The position numbers were made by a program, and so were the translations under genes. DNA of 64,000 nucleotides from Tribonema minus (lineage: Eukaryota; Sar; Xanthophyceae; Tribonematales; Tribonemataceae). The notes under the pieces were generated by a model. That model worked only from the letters and a program-made list of their open reading frames with translations, ran no database searches and was not told where the DNA came from. This document shows, piece by piece, positions 10,533 to 23,784 of the stretch; within the stretch, counting starts at the first letter, position 1; every line of letters starts with the position of its first letter. Location: assembly GCA_017506865.1 (NCBI GenBank), contig JAFCMP010000106.1, positions 124,001-188,000 of the forward strand. The letters run 5' to 3'.

Positions 10533-10542
10533 CCATGTCACG
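10533..10542. repeat. left target-site duplication of the Mutator-like element
   Basis: CCATGTCACG lies immediately outside the left terminal inverted repeat and is repeated exactly at 22245-22254. If the terminal repeat is taken to start two bases earlier or later, the duplication would be 8-10 bp. Confidence 0.85.
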
Positions 10543-10693
10543 CGGATCCCATATTTGGGCCAGCCTGGCCCAATTAACTATTTGGGCCAGGGGGGTTGAA
10601 CACCCCCCAGCAAGTGCACATTTGAAGTGTGCGTGTTCGCAGCAGTCGCCCTTGCGTTTCTGGCGCTACGCACAGTGCGGAGGCCGTGTTGAC
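10543..10693 (+). repeat. left terminal inverted repeat of the MULE (151 bp)
   Basis: It starts CGGATCCCATATTTGGGCCA and is the reverse complement of 22094-22244 apart from about two bases near 10655-10660 (gt versus ag). The outer part contains its own small palindromes (ttgggcca...tggcccaa). Confidence 0.93.
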
Positions 10694-10956
10694 GGCTCAT
10701 TCTGTTGTAAAACACCAGCGGTCTGTGGTCTGGCGATGCAATGGCGTGGCTGGTGCGGGCAGCTGTCATAGGCAAGTGTTTCGAAGCGAAAGTCTGCAAC
10801 TGTTGCTCTTATCCTTCGTGCGCTGTCTATGCTGTGGCGAATGCAGTGCTTGGTTTGCAAGAATTTGGAGTATTTCAGTCAACATGTAGAAATCTGCACC
10901 GGCATACACGGCAGCAGCAACCAGATTTGGCAGTCAGCACAAAGAGCAAGCACTCA

Positions 10957-10958
<2 letters not shown>

Positions 10959-10997
<39 letters not shown>

Positions 10998-11021
10998 ATT
11001 GCTGCTGGCGGTGCTGCTATT
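10959..11021 (+). repeat. CTG microsatellite
   Basis: About nine uninterrupted CTG units are followed by decayed CTG/TTG/GCTG units. On the plus strand one frame reads as poly-Leu or poly-Cys, which is not taken as coding. Confidence 0.85.
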
Positions 11022-11305
11022 ACTGCCACAACTGCGAGACCAGTGGCTATGGTTATTATCGCTGGCGACATTGTAGGGCGACGATAGCTTTCTGCAGCAG
11101 GCTGCTGTGCTCAGGTTGCGCTTGCCGTTCGTGTGTTGCTGCTTTACCACTGCCAGTGACGCAGCTGTGGTTGCTCAAAGCTGCTTACAACTGCAGCATA
11201 TGTGCACCTGACCTGTAGGCTGTAGGCTTTGTGGCTCTTGCCTTGATATGACTTGAGACTGAGCTACTGCTTGTGCACGGCGCGAGTGCTTGTCCCATAC
11301 TTGTT

Positions 11306-11340
11306 GGATCCCGCATATGGGCCAGCCTCACCCATTCAAT
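11306..11340 (+). repeat. degenerate internal copy of the MULE terminus
   Basis: The text gttggatcccgcatatgggc followed by cagcctcaccca resembles the element's terminal cggatcccatatttgggcca gcctggccca. It is in the same orientation as the left end and about 770 bp inside it. It could be a remnant of an inner or older end. Confidence 0.5.
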
Positions 11341-14300
11341 GTTGAGGCCTCAGAGCCACGTCATCCATTCATTCAGCACTGCCGCCTCGCTGCTGCTGCT
11401 ACGTGAGCGCCAGAACTAACAGGCAGTAGGAGGGCTGGCTCTGTGGCAGGCGCTGGCGGCAAAGGGAGGCCGCTGCTGCGACAGCCCCAGTCTCACAGGC
11501 AGTAGAAGGACTTTGTAGACAGGCGCGGGCGGCGAATGGAGGCCAATGGCGGCATGGAGACTGGTTGCAATGGCGAAAGCGCTCCAACGGCATTACAGCG
11601 GCGTTGTGTAGTGATCAGGTAAAGCGGTATACTAAAGGCTCTCAAACTGGCTTTTTTCGCTTGTGTGCTTTACTGAGGCGCTGTGTGAATACCTCTCCGT
11701 TCGCGCAACATTGCATTGAACCAGGCTCCAAACAGAGTTGGTTTACCACGTCAAGCAGACAAGGAGGCAATGATGCAAGCATCGGCTCACCACCAGCAGC
11801 AGCAGCAACAGCAGCAATTGAAACGCAGCCGCTGGTGCGTGCTGCTGCTGATGTTAGCATGCTACATGCAGGTTTTTTTGTGGTTGCTGCGCAATTCCCA
11901 TATGCTCCTGGCCTTAGTCGCCCGCAAGTGCATGCCAAGCGCACTAGCAGTTGCTCTGCAGGAGTCGCAGCAGTAGCAGCGCAACGGTCACTGGATACGG
12001 TACAACAATAGAGTGAAAGCGCGGGCCAAAATAAATATAGGAACGCATGGTTTTTTTCGACTTCAGTGCAATATTCTGTCGACCACATGTGCTCATTCAA
12101 GGTGGCACATGGCAGATGTTCTGATGCTATCTGTTGAAGAGTGTGATTGAGACAGCTTACACACGCACCTTCCGTTTACTGCATGTTATGGTTCCACTAA
12201 ATGTTATGGTTCCACTGTTAATGTGTTCAGTCACTACCGTCAACGCGGTCTACCATACCGTAAGGCAATTATCTAGTACAAGTCTACACCACGTGTCGTT
12301 ATTTAGGGGTACAGCAACAAACGATTTTTTGGAAAGCGTATCCCACACGTGAAGACAAAGCTGAAAAGTGCCAGAGATACTGCAAAATTCAAATGTATCA
12401 ATGCAGGCCAGAGCGGCTGAGTTGTGGCGTCATGCATGTGCATGTTGATGTGATTGGACACGCTCCCGAGCAATAGAAAGATGAAGGACCACTGATTTGC
12501 ACGGAGACCGTTGGGTTTGACAGGATTGCGCATGCTGGAGACGGTCACATTCCCACCTGCCTCAGTCAATCCTAAGCTGAATGCGCATGCCCGTTGAGGT
12601 GAAATGCTTGAATGTTCCAATGTGCATTGATGTTAACCAACGTCGAAGAAAGTGACAATGACCATCATGTGTTGTGGTAGTATACTGTGCCTAGTGTCAA
12701 GGAATGCTGGAAGATGGTGAAATGCTTGCAGGCAGCTGAAATTGCTGTCGTCAGCATGAACACAAATGGATAACTGGACTTGTCCACACATCGCAGCGGC
12801 GCAACGAGCAACATTTGCGACTCAGGCAAATGCAATCACTATACGCTACTCAAGAACTTGTTGCACTGTTAAATGTCTTACAGCACAATAGCGTTCTCAA
12901 TGCAGTGTTCAAAACATGTTCGCATTATCACCTCACGGCCATCCTATTGCAATCTTATGCAGGCCCACCATCTGAGATCGGCTCCAAGCGAGGCACAGCT
13001 GCAGGCACCCTCACGAACTGTCAAATCGCCCTAGTACCAAGCAGCTGGTGTGCGCCACTTGCAGCGAGCAGGCCTGGCTATATGCTTGGCTCCAAGACAG
13101 GCAGGTGGTTTTGAAACTGCTCATGTTGCTTGCAAAGTTAGTTATCCGGAGCCTTTGTCCTGTGTGTATTATAAACACTGGCAGGTGTTGCTTATGTTGC
13201 GCATGCTGAAGGCATCATTGCAAATGGTGAGCTTGATTTATGCACCTGCAGAAGTGCAGGGTGGATAAGCATTATGCTATGCCCATCAATACAGCTCAAC
13301 TGCAAGGGTTATGATTCAGCAGTAGTTGCTGTCATGATATATGCATTGCAATCGATGCCTTGTCCTGACCATCAAATTCATGCTGTTGAAATGATCAGGC
13401 TATTCAACTGCTGCTGTTGATCTAGTTAGCATGAGGTGCGTGCATGCATGGCCGCTGCTTGCGAAGAGGGCATCACTGGCCCCTGATGTGAGTATGCTGC
13501 GGATGAGATGTTTTTCTGTGACTGATGCACAAGTCCTGAACCTCTGCGGTCTGTGCTAGTGAAGGTGGTACAAGTACGCTGCAGGCACAAACTGCGTCCT
13601 TTCCATACGAGCACCAGCACACAGCCTGATTTTAGAGTGTTTCAGGTTCGTAGCATTATCAGTATTCGTGTGCTGCAAGCAGGAACCATGATCATTTAGC
13701 AAATTACCTGATCGATGTTATCTCTATCTGACGTCGCAGATGTCGTGGAGATTCCAGCAGCAAGATGGCGTGTTTTGCAGCTGCATATTCTGCATGGTGC
13801 CAGGCAACCATCCGCCCAAGTACTTATACCACCTGCAACGTGCGATTACAGCACAGCGGATTTGCGCATTGCGCCCAGATGTGTACACACGCACTGTTAT
13901 GTCAAGGCACACCGTTTTTTACAACAGGCACCTCATCAATGCCCCTCTTTCTTTTCTTTTCTGCACAAATGCATTTCTGAGTTGTGCGTCCCCGTGTTGA
14001 GTATTAGTTTGTGTTACCATTTCAATTTGCGACACACTTGACCGGTTTCAAACTGTGAGGCCAACATCACATACACGCACAGGCGGCTGCAAGAGAGGGT
14101 GCATGCCCGTTCAGCAGGTTGTTTGGAGAACGGGTGCTCTGCTACACCTGATTCGATCATCTTTCAGTATTTCTCGCATTACAGTTGGTGCTGTGATCCT
14201 ACGCGCATGACCTTAGTGTGAACACACATGCATGCATGCATCATGTTTGAGTTGTGGTCCTGTCAGTGGTGAAGCATCAACAGTACATCAGGCACATGTA

Positions 14301-14864
14301 CATGCACGCACCTTGGAGTTGTCCTCGTGAACCTGATGTCAAAAGACATGCCATATAGCTGGCAAGCACATGCCATGGAATTGCAATCCAGGTCTGTATG
14401 CAAAAATTATAAAGGTAGATGACTTTGTCAGAATTCGACATCAGGTGGCTCTGGCAGAGCCAGCTTGACAACACTTGGCTCGTGAAGTCATCATCCGTCG
14501 CTCAAGATGCCATGCACTGTTATGTCGTGTTGCAACAACAGCACTAGACAAGCATACATACTCTGCTTTACAAGTACTAGCATGACATGTCATTATCTGC
14601 ATTACAAGAGTAGGTGAAGCGGCTCACCGCAGCACGGTCACAATAGCAGAGCGGCTTTAGTTTTCACTATGCAGGACAAGGCTGACCTTACACAGCAGAT
14701 GACAACGCAATGTATGCTTGCAAGCGGCTTACTTTTGTACATGCATAAAGTTGTCAGGATGTGTGATCTGAACGCCGAAAGCAGGAGCAGTAGAACTTCA
14801 ACATGCATCATGAATAATCTTGTGATTTAAACACACATTAGGCATCACAACTGGCTGCTGATGT

Positions 14865-17800
14865 CTACGATTTGGGCTTCTTGCGGGCTCCGCCTGTGCT
14901 GCCCTTAATGCGTTTTCCCACCGTGTTCTGCGTACGCCGTTTCCTGACAAAAGGGTCATGGACATTGCCAGCAACCATGTCGCGCATTACCTCAGCCAGA
15001 TACCTCATTTTGTCTACTGCCTGCTGTGGTGGCAATGACTTAGCGTCTGCGACAATGGTCTTGGCAATCGCCCATACCTCAGCATGAGCCTTCTCAACAT
15101 TAGTCTGCAATGGCTCATCTAATGCTGCTGCCCCTGCCCAATCACCGTCGAATGCGTGTTGAGTGACATCTGTGCCAGCAGCATAGTGCATTGCAGCAAG
15201 AGCCAACACTTTGGCCAGTGCTACCTGCTGACCAGCACTAGTGGTGACGCAAGCTGCTGCCTGGGCTGAGGAAGGACGCAGCCACCTAGGGTTGGTGTTG
15301 CGGAATACAGCATTGGCAGCTGCAATGGCGACACGTAAGCATTGTGGCCGGCCAGGCGCTGCAGGATTTGATGGAAGAGGTACATCAGCCACCATTTGCT
15401 GCGCACTTGTGCCCGCCCCACCCCCCCCCTCCTTACCATTCCGCAGAGTAAGTGTGTTCTGCATAGGGCTTGCTTTGCGAGCAGCCTTGAGCACCCGCTC
15501 TGCTGTGCTCTGCGGCAGCCCTTGCAGAGTGCAACCATCTATGGCAGTGATGATGTCGCCAATGGCTACAAGCTCTGATGCCTCGGCAGCAAGCATGCCA
15601 CCGTCCTCCGCGCGCGTGAACGCTTGTACGACGACCATGCGGTTGCCGAATTTGAGCTTGACGCCGAGGCCCTCGCCCTTGCGCATGCGCAGCGTCACGT
15701 CGAACATGCCGTACGCCGGAGCTGCTGACGCCGCACCGCTTGTATCGGCAGCGGCGGTGCCAGCTGCGCATTCTCCAGAGCCCTGCTCGCTATCCGCTGT
15801 CCCCCCCACCCCCTGTCCCTCCCCCGCCGCCGGCCCCGCCGCCTCTGCCACCCCCCCAGCGGGGATGACTGTCACTCGCGGCAGGCAAGCGATGATGTGA
15901 CGGCAGAGCATGCCTGTCCGTATGGGGTTCAGGCAGCTGCACAGGGCAGCGCCTGAGGCCGCCACCACCACCGAGTGCTGCGAGCACCCTGAAGTAGCCG
16001 TCGCTGCAAACCACTCCTGATTTGCAAACACTGGGGCGCTGCGCGTGATCGCTTGCAACATGCCCTCACTTGCCCTCCGACTATCATTGTCATCTAATGT
16101 TGCGTCAGGGTCGTCCTCCGGGGTTGGTCCTGAAAGCAGCAACACACGCGCATCAAGTCAGAGGGTGCTTTAGAAAGGGCTTGAATGCGTCCAGACATGA
16201 GAAGAAAGTGCAGGTGACTCTCGCATCAGGGCTGCCACCACCCAGCAGTCCGCAGTGCACGGCGCCTCATTGAGAACCTCACGTTGATTGTACAGGGCTG
16301 CACAGGCAGACAACCTGAAGATTGAGGAAAAAGGCAGGTGCGGCGTCTCAACGAGGCTCTGGTGTTGGTTGCAGCGGGCTGAACAGGTGAGAGGGGGTGA
16401 GAAAAATGCATGCAATCGAACTTCAAGTCCAGCTCAGCAGTGGAAACGTGTACCACTGAGGACATGAAGCTGAAGAACTGGTGGACATTAGCCTTCATTC
16501 GGCAGTGCACGGACTCATACAGGGTATGCATATACTAAATTACATCGGATGATCATGATCCCTCAGTCAGGCGAGTCTGACAGCACCCCTTTGAGGGGGG
16601 GGGGGGCGGGGCATTTACCAGGGCGGGGGGGGGGGGGGGGGGGGGGCAGAGGTCCAAGATTGGCAAGCCGAATAAACCAGGAGGCAGGCGAGTGGGTCGA
16701 GAGGGAGGGGGGGCAGGGGCATAAGAAAGGCTGAGGGTATCGAGGATGCCGTTACCTTGCTGGCTTTAGTGTACTCGACTTGCTTGGCACATGGACATGC
16801 AGTACTATAATGGGAACAGCAATATTTGCTGCAGCACTGTTGCTGTTGTCGACATTTCTGTAGGTGGGTGTTGTCGCCGTTTGGCAAAAGGGGGGCTATG
16901 ACTTTGCAATGACGCCCGTGGTCTCACACAAAGAGAGGGGGCGTCTAGAATGGGGGGGCAGTAAGTCATTATTCAACAGCGGTACGGTAAGGTCACCAGG
17001 TGCGTGTGCTACATGTGCATGATGAACTTCGCAAGAAAACGTACCTGGACTGGAATTGAGACCTTCATCCGCAACCGCCACATGATACCGCGCTGCAGCG
17101 ACCACCTCCTGGGCGATGTGCTTCAGGCAATGCAAAGTGCCATGATGCTTCGCTACCTCCAGCAATGCCCCGTAGATGCTGCGCAGCCCTGCATCGATGC
17201 CCTTCACAGCCACGTCCAATGCGCGGGTGCTGGCCTCCATGTATAGCTGGTCTTCCGCGCTGTATCTTGCAGTGATGCGGCTGATGGAAGTGGTGAGGGA
17301 GCACAGCGTGCCCATTTTCTCCAGCTCTGCCTTCAGCTTGGCAAAGTAGCCCTCGCAGCGCTGGGTAGAGTTGATGCCGAGGGTGAGGATGCCAAGCCGG
17401 AAACAGAAAGCCCACCGCCTGCGGATTGCGTAGATGGTCCGGTTGAGGTATGTCACCACCTCGGCCTCAGCTTTTCCAGCGTGTGCAAGGCAATGGTGCA
17501 TTGCTTGCCACGCTGATTCGAAGCAGCGCTCCGTGGGCGCTCTGGACGCCAGCCGCAGATGCCGCTTGAAGTCCTGTCAGTCAACAAGAATGGACAGTAC
17601 CGGTGATGGATATGCTTGGCATAAACATTAGCATACACGGACGAGCCTGGCCATGTCCACAGGCCAATAAGCACATGAAATACAGGAAGGTACAAACAGT
17701 ACATGAGGCTCTCACTTCTCTTGTAGTAGTACATTTTTCTGCCATCGCTGCTTGTTGCCAGGCAAACCCTAGTAAATCGCGCACATTATCAAGCTGATGT

Positions 17801-20800
17801 AAGTGTATCAAGCACATCTCTGCACTTTGCAACCCTATATGCGCATTCTGTCAGATCAATTGTTTTTGAGTTAAAACATTGTGCACGTGATTCAGCTGCC
17901 CAGCACTTCCCTGGCTGAGTATGCGAGTTGCAGCATCACTGTTTAAGATGGCGCAGAACACGCAGTGCACGAAGATCATGGTTGCTTCATACATGTCACC
18001 TTTGGGTGTCAGCTGGCACATTCTGGAAAAATACCATCTTGATCACTGCAGACTAGCCAGCGCTCAACACTAGGGTTGGCAAAGTGCGTATATTTGGATT
18101 TTACATACCCCTATATATACGTACTTTTGGCGTATAATACGTATATACTGCGTACATTAGCGTATCTGACAAAGCCAAATCTCGCTACGGCGCTTTCCCG
18201 TCTTTGGATTTCTCTGAAACCAGGTGCATTCGAACGGGCTCAGGCTGCTGATTACAGACATGCAGACACTAGAAATAATTGCCTTCATAAAGTGATATCA
18301 GAGCAACACTTGAAGTATGGGATTTTCTTGAAGTTGGCCGAAATGCCAAAAGAAGCTTGGTTACGGCCTGAGTGTGCCGACCGCATGGTGCCGCTGAAAA
18401 GCCGCACCTCGCCAGGGGGCAGCCTGTGCTCTGTCAGCATGAGCAGCGACTCCTTCCCTTCGTCCTCTTCCACATCACCGATAGAACAAGCCGTGAAGGC
18501 TCGTGCAGGCTCTGCTGGCGAAGTGCGAAGCTGCCTGAGCCACTGAATTGTCAAGTTCAGGCTGTGCAGGCGCCTTGTGTGGCTTAAGACCACCGCTCAG
18601 CCCTGCCTTTCCGCTTCTGGCCCCAAGATAGCCCTAGCCACCTTACCCTTGGCATGCGCTGGGCCACGGGCGACACTCGTGAGCACCACAGCGGTGCAAA
18701 AGCGTATACGCGAATATACGCCCCGTTTCGGCGTCTACGCGTATATATACGCGTATATACCAATATACCGTATATATACTATCTACGCATGTGCCAACCC
18801 TACTCAACACCAAAGACTTGTGCAAGCCTGACATGCAATGTCTCACAACGTGCATTTGGCAGCGGATGACTAAAAAAAATGCCACGGAAGTTGGCTTGCC
18901 AAGATAGGGATGCACAGCAATGCTGGCTGACAACATTGCGATCAGATTGTTCCTGTCAACGTCATTTTTGTCACCTTTGGGTGTCAGCTGGCACATTCTG
19001 GAAAAATACCATCATGATCACTGCAGATTAGCCAGCGCTCAACACCAAAGACTTGTGCAAGCCTGACATGCAATGTCTCACAACGTGCATTTGGCAGCGG
19101 ATGACTAAAAAAAATGCCACGGAAGTTCGCTTGCCAAGATAGGGATGCACAGCAATGCTGGCTGACAACATTGCAATCAGATTGTTCCTGTCAACGTCAT
19201 TTTTGTTCACGTGATGCACTCATGGCTAGGTGCTCTACACATGCAAACAAGGGGCATGCACTCATGGCTAGGTGCTCTACACATGCAAACAAGGGCCATG
19301 CTACTAATTTCCAACAGCTGTAGACATACATTTGACAGTCAACTTCCGTGGCGTCGGGGTTGCACTTGCCTTCCATGCAGTCCCCAGTCTTGATTTCAAC
19401 TTCTCCTTCACGTTCTTGATGAAATGCCACTCGCAGATCAGGTGCACCGTTCCCGGCCATGACAACTCCATGGCCGCCTCTGCAGCTGCATCTCTGCACA
19501 ATAACACAAGTAAGGATAAGATTGGGTCACCAGCCTGACAGTGATGCCATGTGTAACAGGATAAGGGATGTGCGCTAGCGTATAGCACCGTACATATACG
19601 GCTGTGCAAGGGATGACTAAGAGCCTCGCTTCTTCTTCGTACATACCACGTAGGTGATACCTGAACTTCAACTTCTTTCAATTTCTCGTTCAGCAGTGTA
19701 GCGCTATTGCAGACAGCAGGCAGTTGTGCATTTGATGACACCACAACCACAAGCATAACACTGCAAGCACGTGCGGGCCGATGGTGGCAGCTGCTCAACA
19801 ACAGTTTATGTACATATGTCTGGGTGACTACCTTCAGCTGTTCGCTCATGTCCCTGAAATCAAGCTGAAAGCAAACCTTGTTGCTTAGTGAGAAAGGATC
19901 ATGACATGTACGCCGTATGCCGCATGCCACAATGGCTAAACTGCCGTCTTTATAACGCATATAGAGCGGGTAGGATACTTGAGTTGGCGTATATGTATAT
20001 GCTATAGTATTTAATAACCAACATGTATATCAGTTTTGTTAAACAGGATACTCTTGCAGAAACAGGATATGCTGCAAGCCTTCATACCTGTCTGTGAAGC
20101 ACACTCGAGGGAATCGCCCGTCCACCATTTTCACATAATGGTCGAAGAACCACGTGAACTCTTCAGTGCCCTCTCCATCCAACACTGCCTGGCAGAACAG
20201 TCTTGTCCTGCACATATTGCAGAGAGATTCGCACAGTCTGAGTCAGACATCTGTGTTTCATGGCCCGCTGTGATTTAAACTTGACTGATACATGCTCAGC
20301 AATCAATAGCATAGAAGCCATTAGCATGACAGTATACGGTATACGCATATCAGAACCATGCATTCGCGCATACAGTACTTCATCACCATCAGACATTCCT
20401 GCAACAGCGACATGACTCACTTGCTCTCGCCGTTCACGCCAATGATAATGCTGAGCGGCAGGCCATACTTGTTTGTGCCAAATGTGCAGTCCTGTGAAAC
20501 ACCCAAGCAAGTGGACAACAGAGACGATTCAGATTAGTGGTGCTTCAGAAAATGCAACAGTGATCACTCCAGCGGCAGTTGAGGCATTGGCACGACGACA
20601 CAATCATGACAAAGCCTGCAAGCTGACCTAAATGCAAGATTATACCCCAAGGACGCAAGGATGGCACATTGACAGGTTTGTGACTGCACGTTCACTCACT
20701 ACGGAAGCGTTGGCCGGCCTCAGCACACACACTGATAGCTGACAACTGCGTGCTTTGCATGCATCACCCTTTGTCACCTCAGTGCAGACCGACCGACAGT

Positions 20801-21651
20801 TGTGGCAAAAGCAAACTTACGTGCAGTAAGCGAGCTCAGCGACTGTGGGTCACCTGTTGAATGACATCCAGACCAAACTCCATGGCCAGCTCCACCTGCT
20901 CGCGTGTGGCCCAGAATGCTCGCTTAAACGTGCTGTCCTCCGAAAGGTCATGAGCAGCATACCCTCCTGTCGCCACCACATTGTTGAGCTCAGCAATGAA
21001 CTCTTTGCTGTCGCCAGCAACGAATGCAAGCTTCGCCCTGACAGCCGCCGCTACATTGTTGAGCTGATTGATTGCCTGCTCATCGAAGACAGCCTTCAGG
21101 TCCCCGCCGAAGTGGTGAGCGAGGACAGTTTGTCGCAGCATCTTTCCACACATGCTGGGCGCCACGCACCAGCTCCTGACATCAGCTAAGATTTCTGCTG
21201 TGAGCTCGCTCTTGGCAATGATGCGGCCGATGCCATCAGGCCGAGGTAGCTGCTTCACAGCCATTGCATGGTTGTGACCCTCGCTGAATGACGAGGGGAC
21301 ACTGATCAGAGTCCATGGCACTGGTGTGGCAGTGACCGTATGCTCCAGGCTATCAGTGATCGCAGCAAGAGGCTGACGCGCTGATGGCATGTGAGGCTTT
21401 AGAACTGCACGCCAGCTGCAGTTGCATTTGATGCACTGATTTACCACTGTCCGTGGTGCAGCATCGGGCTTCAGTGCAGAGGCCTTCTGAGGAGGGGCAC
21501 CTGCACAATGGCAGACTAGCCAGTATAGCGAGCTGTTTTTTTTCTTCAGGTACACCTTAAAACCAGCAGTGGAAGCTTGCATCTGCACGACCTCCAAAGC
21601 TTCGTTTGGTGACCCAAACAGCCTCCCCTGAAGCTCAGCACCGAACTGCAT
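14865..21651 (-). CDS. Mutator-like transposase with FAR1-like N-terminus, SWIM finger and PDZ domain
   Basis: Six exons: 21651-20854, 20491-20421, 20207-20088, 19493-19370, 17573-17045 and 16129-14865. Together they make 2,907 nt (968 residues) with all phases matching and no internal stop. It is a DDE transposase of the MULE/FAR1 class. The N-terminal region has a Cys/His DNA-binding look (VCHCAG, CIKCNCSW, EGHNHAM). The catalytic signatures are DCTFGTNKYGLPL (first Asp, residue ~267), RVCFTD|RDAAAEAAMELSWPG (~329) followed by HLICEWHFIKN, and GINSTQRCEGYFAKLKAEL (Glu ~445). A SWIM zinc finger CSCLNPIRTGMLCRH follows (~611-625), then a PDZ domain (~690-779) and a basic tail (RKRRTQNTVGKRIKG). 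Donors are GT except exon 4, which uses AAG|GCAAGT (a GC-AG intron). The protein would act in the nucleus on the 151 bp ends. The PDZ is the unexpected part. Confidence 0.92.
15435..15704 (-). other. PDZ domain within the transposase
   Basis: The segment begins MFDVTLRMRKGEGLGVKL and contains the GLGVKL carboxylate-loop position, then VVVQAFTRAEDGGMLA, the SELVAIGDIITAIDG strand-turn, AERVLKAA as the second helix and TLTLRNG as the last strand. That is the full order of a PDZ fold in about 90 residues. It lies in the same exon as the SWIM finger, joined by an Ala/Gly-rich linker, so it is not a splicing artefact of my model. Confidence 0.85.
15897..15941 (-). other. SWIM zinc finger of the transposase
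   Basis: CSCLNPIRTGMLCRH fits CxC-x(n)-CxH, the SWIM pattern common after the catalytic core of Mutator-like transposases. Confidence 0.9.
16588..16647 (+). repeat. poly-G tracts in transposase intron 5
   Basis: Two long G runs (about 16597-16607 and 16626-16646) lie inside the 16130-17044 intron. They may mark an unreliable sequence length and could form G-quadruplexes. Confidence 0.8.
17996..19206. repeat. tandem duplication in transposase intron 4, one copy interrupted
   Basis: A unit of about 240 bp starts gtcacctttgggtgtcagct and is present at 17996-18070 plus 18803-18970, and again at 18971-19206. The first copy is split by the hAT-like element 18071-18802, and the second preserves the empty site ctcaacac at 19038-19045. 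Confidence 0.88.
18071..18802. mobile_element. non-autonomous hAT-like element (732 bp) nested in the MULE
   Basis: The ends are TAGGGTTGGCAAAG and its inverted counterpart TGCGTAGATAGT...TGCCAACCCTA, so TAGGGTTGGCA is a shared terminal inverted repeat. The flanks are a perfect 8 bp duplication CTCAACAC (18063-18070 and 18803-18810). The tandem neighbour copy shows the uninterrupted site, which proves the boundaries. Eight-bp duplications and a (C/T)AGGG start fit the hAT superfamily. Subterminal regions are rich in cgtatatac words. The interior contains an open stretch of about 100 codons (18285-18593, minus) that I do not recognise, and no transposase. Confidence 0.88.
19213..19296. repeat. 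two tandem ~42 bp units
   Basis: gcactcatggctaggtgctc followed by tacacatgcaaacaaggg occurs twice in a row inside transposase intron 4. Confidence 0.85.
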
Positions 21652-22093
21652 GCAAACGAACAGGGCACAATGCGATCAGCTTGACACGATCTGCTATCTA
21701 AGGTCGAGCTGTGCCGTGCACTCAGAAAACGCAGTGGCCATGCAGTGCGAGAGCTAACAGTACAGTCAAACTTGAGCCAAACTGGCCATGCCCGCGGTAG
21801 CGCTGCTGTCCGTTGGTGTGTGTCTTTGAGTTTTGAGTACGCAACATGTGCAGTGCGACTGGTCCACTCAAGCTGTGAAGCTTACAAGGCCGATGTCAAA
21901 ATGGCTTGGAACATGAACCTGACTCCCTCATGGACATTGGTCTACCGCTGCAGATGGCAAGTTATGAATGAAATTTGGCAGTTGCTTCATAGTCACCTCG
22001 ACATCTCCAGCGGTTGCAGCTGAGCTCGCCGGAGGCGAGCCCTCCATCTGTGCGTCACCAAGCCCACTGATTGCTGTCTTAGCTGCTTACTCG

Positions 22094-22244
22094 GTCAACA
22101 CGGCCTCCGCACTGTGCGTAGCGCCAGAACTGCAAGGGCGACTGCTGCGAACACGCACACTTCAAATGTGCACTTGCTGGGGGGTGTTCAACCCCCCTGG
22201 CCCAAATAGTTAATTGGGCCAGGCTGGCCCAAATATGGGATCCG
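22094..22244 (-). repeat. right terminal inverted repeat of the MULE (151 bp)
   Basis: It is the reverse complement of 10543-10693 and ends ...CCCAAATATGGGATCCG. The transposase start codon lies about 440 bp inside it, so the promoter is probably in or next to this repeat. Confidence 0.93.
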
Positions 22245-22254
22245 CCATGTCACG
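22245..22254. repeat. right target-site duplication of the MULE
   Basis: CCATGTCACG is identical to 10533-10542. Confidence 0.85.
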
Positions 22255-22538: not shown

Positions 22539-22812
22539 GTGAGCCGACAACCTGTTTCAGTGCATTACTTGTTGCTAACAATACTCAGCAGTTGTTGACA
22601 ATATCCACATGATGAGAAGTATCGTCACCAGTGGGTGTGCCTGCGGCGCATTGAAAGTTTAGCAGTGCGACACAGCCTGCTTTTTCCCTACTTTGACTAG
22701 CGGCCCCGATGCCTGTGCAACACACACAGCTGGCAGCATTTGTCTTGCGTTGTCAATAAACACCTAGATGCACCCGCCGTTTTTTGATTCATGTAACGAA
22801 ATGGAAAAAAAG

Positions 22813-23227
22813 AAGGATTGAGGTAGTGCGTGCGCCTTACCAGCCTGAGTGGGTGTAAGGTACATGTTCATCTGCATCAAGCGCGTGTTTTGTCATGTAA
22901 TCAGCAGCTGGAAGGACAGCATGGTACCACAACATGCCATAATTTTTGTCACAATAGGATCATCATGTTCAATGGTTAGGGTTGCCGACCAGCGAACAAT
23001 GTTATCCCCTATGGTATATGAAGGATTGAGATGCTGCGTGCGCCTTACCAGCCTGAGTGGGTGTAAGTACATGTTCATCTGCATCAAGTGCGTGTTTTGT
23101 CATGTAATCAGCAGCTGGAAGGACAGCATGGTACCACAACATGCCATAATTTTTGTCACAATAGGATCATCATGTTCAATGGTTAGGGTTGCCGACCAGC
23201 GAACAATGTTATTCCCTATGGTATATG
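22813..23227. repeat. tandem duplication of ~208 bp
   Basis: Copy 1 is 22813-23020 and copy 2 is 23021-23227. They differ at a handful of bases (for example gaggtagtgcg versus gagatgctgcg). Both contain ggttagggttgcc. Confidence 0.9.
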
Positions 23228-23784
23228 ACGCAAAGTCCTAACATATATATTATCTATATTGCATACAACAGTGCATATCAATATGCTAAAATCTGAAAAG
23301 GCGGCGTCCGATTGAAGCACAACAGCGTCAATTAATTTTCAAGAGTCTAGAAGACCCGATTACATCCTCCTAGTCTAGTGCAAGAAACCTTACAATTAGC
23401 AAGATCGCCACTTAAGTTGTTCAACTTTGATGCCAAATGAAACAATTAGCATGCATGTATGCACTCACAGATCCAGTGCATGCGCCATGAGCTCCAGATT
23501 TCAACATGATGCCAGGCTTGTTTTTGTAGTACATAGTGCACGAGCAGTGGTGCCGCACATGTCACGGCATAGCAGATGCCAATACAAAAACAAAGTTCTC
23601 GGAACTTGCATGACCATAGCACACACCTCACAACATTAGGTGCAGAGGCCTAGCATAGCTGATGATGATCGTAGCCATACATTCGCTACACATACCATGC
23701 ATCAAGGACACGATGTTGAACAGCAAGCCAGGCTTGTGCTGGGAGGTCATGACTGCAGTTGATTGATAGACAAATGAGAACAAC

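Follow-up and report, generated by a model that had tools for sequence, protein, structure and literature searches.

A PDZ domain in the transposase of a Mutator-like element from the xanthophyte Tribonema minus

Mutator-like element (MULE) transposases of the MuDR, Jittery and FAR1 type combine a MULE core, in which a DDE catalytic triad is accompanied by a C-x2-H motif, with a SWIM motif, and the corresponding elements often possess long terminal inverted repeats (TIRs) and are flanked by target site duplications (TSDs) of 8-11 bp. Host-like domains are also found in MULEs, e.g. the ULP1 peptidase of the KI-MULEs. As modules for protein docking, PDZ domains are familiar chiefly from scaffold proteins, among them the animal proteins X11/Mint (APBA) and MPDZ. 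In the literature surveyed, judged mostly by title and the beginning of the abstract, a PDZ domain is described neither for a MULE nor for any other DNA transposon; in one of the sources PDZ and MULE both occur but are unrelated to each other (PMC10161547). For the lineage considered here, a Gypsy element of Ectocarpus bearing a Tudor domain C-terminally is reported, together with a homologue in Tribonema minus (PMC12477816). The present analysis concerns a complete MULE encoding a transposase with a PDZ domain, located in a stretch of 64,000 nucleotides of the Tribonema minus genome (contig JAFCMP010000106.1, positions 124,001 to 188,000; hereafter the window, from whose first nucleotide its coordinates are counted).

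The window element resembles the MuDR, Jittery and FAR1-type MULEs in its core, in the presumed DDE triad with C-x2-H, in its long TIRs and in a TSD length within the range of 8-11 bp; core domain, TIRs and TSD identify it as a MULE, and a motif of SWIM type, read by eye, is seen as well. It differs from them in that its transposase additionally contains the PDZ domain and a conserved C-terminal region. KI-MULEs likewise join a MULE to a host-like domain, but this is a protease and not a docking domain. The Tudor-bearing Gypsy element is a mobile element of the same lineage with a protein-recognition domain added C-terminally; it is, however, a retroelement with a chromatin-reader domain, whereas the window encodes a DDE transposase with PDZ (PMC12477816). 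A MULE transposase with PDZ had been proposed for this locus in a sequence-only reading, which was not aware of any description of such an architecture. The observation is confirmed by gene rebuilding, by profile matches and by the protein P0001 (see below), a real MULE-PDZ protein is almost certain, and within its limits the literature survey likewise offers no description of one.

Rebuilding of the exons yielded 968 residues and a stop codon from six exons with consistent phases on the minus strand (21651 to 14865; Table 1), as the sequence-only reading had joined them. Four of the five introns are of the GT-AG type; intron 4 is GC-AG. The core of the model matches Pfam MULE (PF10551) over residues 263-357 with 70.8 bits (E 1.4e-19, cut-off 27.6). 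The residues D267, D329 and E445, which by position and motif are taken to be the DDE triad, are invariant between the model and P0001, and so is the C-x2-H motif (C350-E-W-H353) between the second D and the E. A genome search with the Pfam MULE family gave no match, probably owing to the distribution of the domain over several exons. The SWIM motif postulated for the last exon stands as a motif, C611-x-C613 ... C623-x-H625, read by eye and kept in all eight aligned sequences; profile support is below the cut-off or missing, with two of five exon-6 proteins matched by Pfam SWIM (PF04434), both sub-threshold, and no match at E<=1 in the model, P0001 or P0003. The conserved C-terminal region comprises residues 809-968 (AVFRNT..RWLRPS...), evolves with a ratio of nonsynonymous to synonymous substitution rates (dN/dS) of 0.32 relative to the C112 copy, and found no Pfam match in the P0001 segment scanned.

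Table 1. Position of the element, its termini, and the exons and domains of its transposase gene in the window.
Feature	Coordinates	Strand	Remarks
Complete MULE	10543..22244	-	11,702 bp; TIRs and TSD
Left TSD CCATGTCACG	10533..10542	.	flanks left TIR
Left TIR (CGGATCCCATATTTGGGCC...)	10543..10693	+	151 bp
Right TIR	22094..22244	-	151 bp, 2 mismatches to left TIR
Right TSD CCATGTCACG	22245..22254	.	flanks right TIR; 10 bp
Exon 1	20854..21651	-	N-terminal region, presumably zinc-type (C73, C76, C78 ... H126, H128)
Exon 2	20421..20491	-	presumed first catalytic Asp D267
Exon 3	20088..20207	-	presumed second catalytic Asp D329
Exon 4	19370..19493	-	C-x2-H motif (C350, H353); GC-AG intron next
Exon 5	17045..17573	-	presumed catalytic Glu E445
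Exon 6	14865..16129	-	SWIM, PDZ, conserved C-terminal region, stop codon
SWIM knuckle CSC...CRH	15894..15938	-	residues 611-625; by eye and alignment
PDZ domain	15435..15701	-	residues 690-778; profile matches

The whole architecture is also present in P0001, a complete open reading frame (ORF) of 960 aa from EukProt that bears a Trinity name and is taken as transcript-derived. It aligns with 99% of the model at 50% identity and shows no gaps at the first four exon junctions; the fifth junction lies inside a gapped, poorly conserved stretch of the alignment. A Tribonema minus locus on contig C190 (696600-701000, L084) matches P0001 at 96-97% identity in two stretches (389-493 and 572-840), with a third piece of exon 5 and the C-terminal part recovered in poorer alignments (73% and 75%); this copy is broken near its 3' end. 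Because of these two stretches, P0001 is assigned to Tribonema or a close relative, and an earlier view of it as a protein of a different species, together with the cross-species argument built on it, was dropped. In the C190 locus the corresponding stretches are separated from one another (bases 128-442, about 1047-1409, and 3031 onward), whereas P0001 reads through them continuously, which provides transcript-level evidence, from a sister family, that the exon with SWIM and PDZ is spliced to the catalytic exons. In the window and in the loci L070, L071, L072 and L076, SWIM and PDZ are moreover encoded in a single open frame. The NCBI protein P0002, which has its match in the C112 copy (83 residues at 100%, 155 at 99%, 192 at 94% and 27 at 96%), represents a partial model, unlike the six-exon one.

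Identification of the PDZ domain relies on sequence profiles. The window segment alone matches PF00595 with 24.5 and 25.2 bits (cut-off 23.2), and all eight MULE PDZ segments match at E<=0.1, the best at 1e-6. A profile of the eight related PDZ domains recovered 28 sequences at E<=0.01 among solved structures, all of which, by name or as known otherwise, are PDZ domains or PDZ-bearing proteins; weaker searches with single sequences and profiles also returned a few unrelated proteins, at E above 0.04. The best matches are the PDZ domains of X11/Mint (APBA) and MPDZ, with no orthology implied. The PDZ that had been read in the last exon is thus supported by profiles, with the coordinates given in Table 1. 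All eight sequences retain a carboxylate-loop-like L-G-(V/L).

The element as such belongs to the Mutator-like DNA transposons, is of autonomous type and has been mobile recently. Its TIRs and TSD, absent from the sequence-only reading, were added here. A genome search with the TIR gave 40 matches at >=86% identity, most of them beginning no earlier than base 2 of the 152-base query. Both ends are present in sixteen copies, counting that of the window; 13 of these measure 10,954-10,972 bp, and C106 (the window's own), C41 and C379 are longer. As judged from the lengths, the excess of the window element would correspond to a 732-bp insertion and its 8-bp TSD. Among 14 end pairs, ten show an exact TSD of 10 bp, C426 an exact one of 9 bp and C447 a match of 9 of 10; for C41 a 10-bp duplication lies beyond a 13-bp extra end (by eye), and C522 has none. 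Two further end pairs, C123 and C539 (746-11710), were kept outside this count; by eye, their sites agree with C348 and C438 (C123 at one end only). As one insertion site is common to several contigs, the number of independent insertions is lower than that of the copies. For the repeat-embedded C137 insertion, at least 40 uninterrupted paralogous sites (94-98% identity) carry a single copy of the duplication across the junction. Six other junctions were searched in the genome in the same manner: C348 yielded one uninterrupted site at 87%, and none was found for the remaining five, the window's among them. Protein matches within the window family are 98-100% identical, except C313 exon 6 (96%) and C123 exon 1 (84%, with stops), and the exon-6 region of L001-L018 is 99.49-100% identical to the window in DNA; the C112 copy shows 80-81% protein identity. 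Exon 5 of the C123 copy is nevertheless 100% identical, perhaps indicating a patchwork copy.

Some additional features lie in or near the element. Intron 4 contains a hAT-like non-autonomous element of 732 bp (18071-18802; ends TAGGGTTGGCA...TGCCAACCCTA; 8-bp TSD CTCAACAC), whose uninterrupted site is kept in a duplicated neighbour at 19038. The total length of the C41 copy is similar to the window's, and it may share this insertion; a 95% match to part of the hAT-like element adjoins the C76 insertion (L029 1-585). A degenerate TIR-like stretch inside the MULE (11299-11339, 76% over 41 nt) is perhaps the remnant of an older related end. No Pfam-recognised frame was found in the left 4 kb among the three of five listed ORFs that were scanned. 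Just outside the element, a 207-bp unit is present in two tandem copies (22812-23228).

Related sequences are numerous in the same genome, searched as an assembly of 158 Mb. A search with the PDZ found 69 places, 22 at 98-100% identity, one at 78% and 46 at 40-53%. Seven loci of the last group were fetched (L070-L076): all six exons are seen in L072 together with its flanks, exons 1 (in part) to 6 in L070, exons 3, 4 and 6 in L076, and exons 5 and 6 in L071, L074 and L075, their upstream parts lying beyond the fetched range. Wherever the SWIM query matched, a PDZ match follows 70-342 bp downstream on the same strand (67 of 67 rows; 66 loci, one split), and 65 of 68 exon-5 loci lie beside a SWIM match; both queries were window sequences, so that a more distant sister family devoid of PDZ could be missed. 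The three exon-5 loci devoid of SWIM or PDZ were considered as PDZ-less variants and rejected, since each either breaks off ahead of exon 6 or lies at a contig end. Three PDZ places are devoid of SWIM: two of them, C531 and C479, appear to be cellular, and the third, C290, is a degenerate relative. A further element, C9, measures 10,544 bp and has TIRs of ~141 bp at 90% identity ending in CGGACCCCATATTTG, close to CGGATCCCATATTTG of the window; the script found no exact TSD, and a 7-of-9 match was seen by eye. Green algae, the lineage in which further examples were to be sought, had been wrongly chosen, the host being a stramenopile (Xanthophyceae). A scan of viral contigs found no relative.

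Trees of the PDZ and of SWIM plus C-terminal region agree in the topology ((window, C112b), C112a, ((C9, C507), (C13, (P0001, P0003)))); bootstrap values range from 85 to 100 in the core tree and from 53 to 99 in that of the PDZ. PDZ identity between MULE families amounts to 43-54%. The simplest reading is that a single PDZ acquisition preceded the split of the sampled families. On C531, a 791-aa frame (L073 292-2664) encodes a cellular-type PDZ (PF00595, 28.9 bits) that is 40-48% identical to the MULE PDZs, similarly distant from all sampled MULE families, and placed inside the PDZ tree (66 and 53); no MULE or SWIM match was found in the 3.3 kb fetched. This frame is possibly kin of the PDZ donor. 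A second cellular-looking frame, L080 on C479, has a weak PDZ match and, by eye, a possible SAM-like segment.

Selection was estimated as dN/dS by the Nei-Gojobori method with codon bootstrap intervals. Between L072 and L076 the ratio is 0.34 (0.18-0.64) for the PDZ, 0.19 for SWIM, and 0.96 and 0.97 for the two linkers; between L084 and L071 it is 0.18 (0.08-0.33) for the PDZ, 0.11 for SWIM and 0.83 (0.39-1.60) for the second linker. In the comparison of the window with C112, the whole gene shows 0.36, the N-terminal region 0.31, exons 2-4 0.08, exon 5 0.32 and SWIM 0.24, in addition to the C-terminal value given above, and the linkers 1.02 and 2.52; the nonsynonymous rate of the PDZ is below that of the linkers (p=0.0013). 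In five more distant pairs synonymous sites are saturated or nearly so, and the four computable PDZ values (0.22-0.35) were not relied on. The PDZ is clearly constrained in two pairs and weakly in that of the window, so that the purifying selection that the sequence-only reading had called for testing is found in two of the three usable pairs.

The explanation that, taken as a whole, appears fairly probable starts from a recently mobile MULE whose transposase keeps an N-terminal zinc region, a DDE core with C-x2-H insertion and a SWIM motif, and in which a PDZ would have been gained between SWIM and the conserved C-terminal region. The domain may derive from a cellular PDZ protein, captured ahead of the split of the sampled families, and may now serve in docking: it would bind a partner, most probably a host protein, either by the partner's tail or by an internal motif, and thereby influence where or when the element moves. 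For host-partner docking by the PDZ, the chances are judged from the sequences to be about even. The narrower proposal, i.e. one capture from a cellular protein, retention for docking to a host (perhaps nuclear) protein with partner-directed targeting or timing, and a specificity drifting between families, is put forward tentatively, at slightly below even chances. Self-assembly of the transposase, offered by the sequence-only reading as an alternative to a host partner, is disfavoured insofar as it would involve the protein's own C-terminus. A usual PDZ ligand ends in a hydrophobic residue, and the last residues of the tails read for window, C112b, C13, C112a and P0001 are S, A, R, T and T. 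Because these tails are unlike usual PDZ ligands, the sequences favour an outside partner, with an identity that differs or has drifted. Of that interpretation, then, the MULE with PDZ stands on the profiles, P0001, the 66 loci with SWIM plus PDZ and the selection in two of three pairs, and tail self-assembly is disfavoured.

Several observations limit this explanation or weigh against it. PF00595 falls below its cut-off in the full protein (19.0 bits) and in exon 6 (20.6 bits), and the AlphaFold models of exon 6 and P0001 are unusable for judging the fold (mean predicted local distance difference test scores of 33.8 and 34.3; alignments of 4 and 5 rows). The residue assigned to helix B position 1 from standard PDZ anatomy varies over the aligned sequences as Q, Q, A, V, T, A, T and T; as it is never His and varies between families, neither a class I pocket nor a common ligand specificity is indicated. 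For the window and C112, the dN/dS of the PDZ is 0.67 (0.35-1.39) and not separable from 1, its nonsynonymous rate is above that of the core (p=0.0038), and a second alignment lowers the first linker to 0.44; in the pair L084 and L071 synonymous divergence reaches a high dS of 1.15, and a ratio for the first linker is not obtainable. No relative outside Tribonema was found in protein-set searches by sequence, by profile and with the catalytic region of P0001, which all returned the same three relatives; the latter two are limited by word sampling, and the first two covered up to 8000 and 7997 candidates. Nine places of the C13 family are read as having a broken PDZ, from a shortened match, a 259-aa frame and a 171-aa SWIM frame; the two that were sequenced, L074 and L075 (C25 and C47), carry the same 1-bp deletion, located in a T run of the PDZ. 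The altered site of this deletion reads like a 3' splice site (TTTTCAG). As the broken type is multicopy, the PDZ and the part downstream of it seem not to be needed in cis, and mobilisation in trans is the simplest account of these copies. In the window family, C123, C348, C379 and C426 (two of them at one site) show a frame break just after the PDZ near a C-rich run, where a sequencing error is possible.

Among the alternatives, the one that survives best, unlikely as it is, regards the PDZ as a real fold serving as a scaffold inside the protein or the transposase multimer, between SWIM and C-terminal region, with no free ligand. It would fit the position of the PDZ between two conserved segments in the aligned families and after SWIM in all rows, as well as a fold core conserved while helix B position 1 varies. 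The faster-evolving, length-variable linkers on both sides suggest an independent module instead, and the retained carboxylate-loop-like motif likewise speaks against a PDZ devoid of a ligand. Considerably less probable is a passenger PDZ, captured once and slowly decaying with no role in transposition, to which the broken C13 places and the window pair's ratio, not separable from 1, would lend some credit; the low ratios in the two other pairs and retention of the PDZ across such divergent families speak against it, and the C13 frameshift removes the C-terminal region too, so that trans mobilisation of these copies is the simpler account. A domesticated, immobile host gene derived from a MULE, for which the intact frame and the whole-gene dN/dS might be cited, is highly improbable, being refuted at this locus by the TIRs and TSDs; the 22 places of 98-100% PDZ identity and the differing insertion sites also speak against it. 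Equally improbable is a PDZ of another gene joined by an artefact: P0002 is partial and different, and the transcript evidence stems from a sister family and not from the window family, but the 960-aa frame of P0001 has the same order, the exons lie apart in the C190 locus, and five loci hold SWIM and PDZ in one frame.

With docking of the PDZ to a partner thus retained as the preferred explanation, a PDZ under selection inside a DDE transposase would, if true, offer a handle on transposon-host interaction, and the isolated domain of 90 residues could name the partner. Near-identical copies, subfamilies with intact and broken PDZ, and families with differing pockets coexist in one genome, which makes comparative tests possible. 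The MULE-PDZ adds to the Tudor-bearing Gypsy element a further mobile element with an added protein-recognition domain in the same lineage (PMC12477816).

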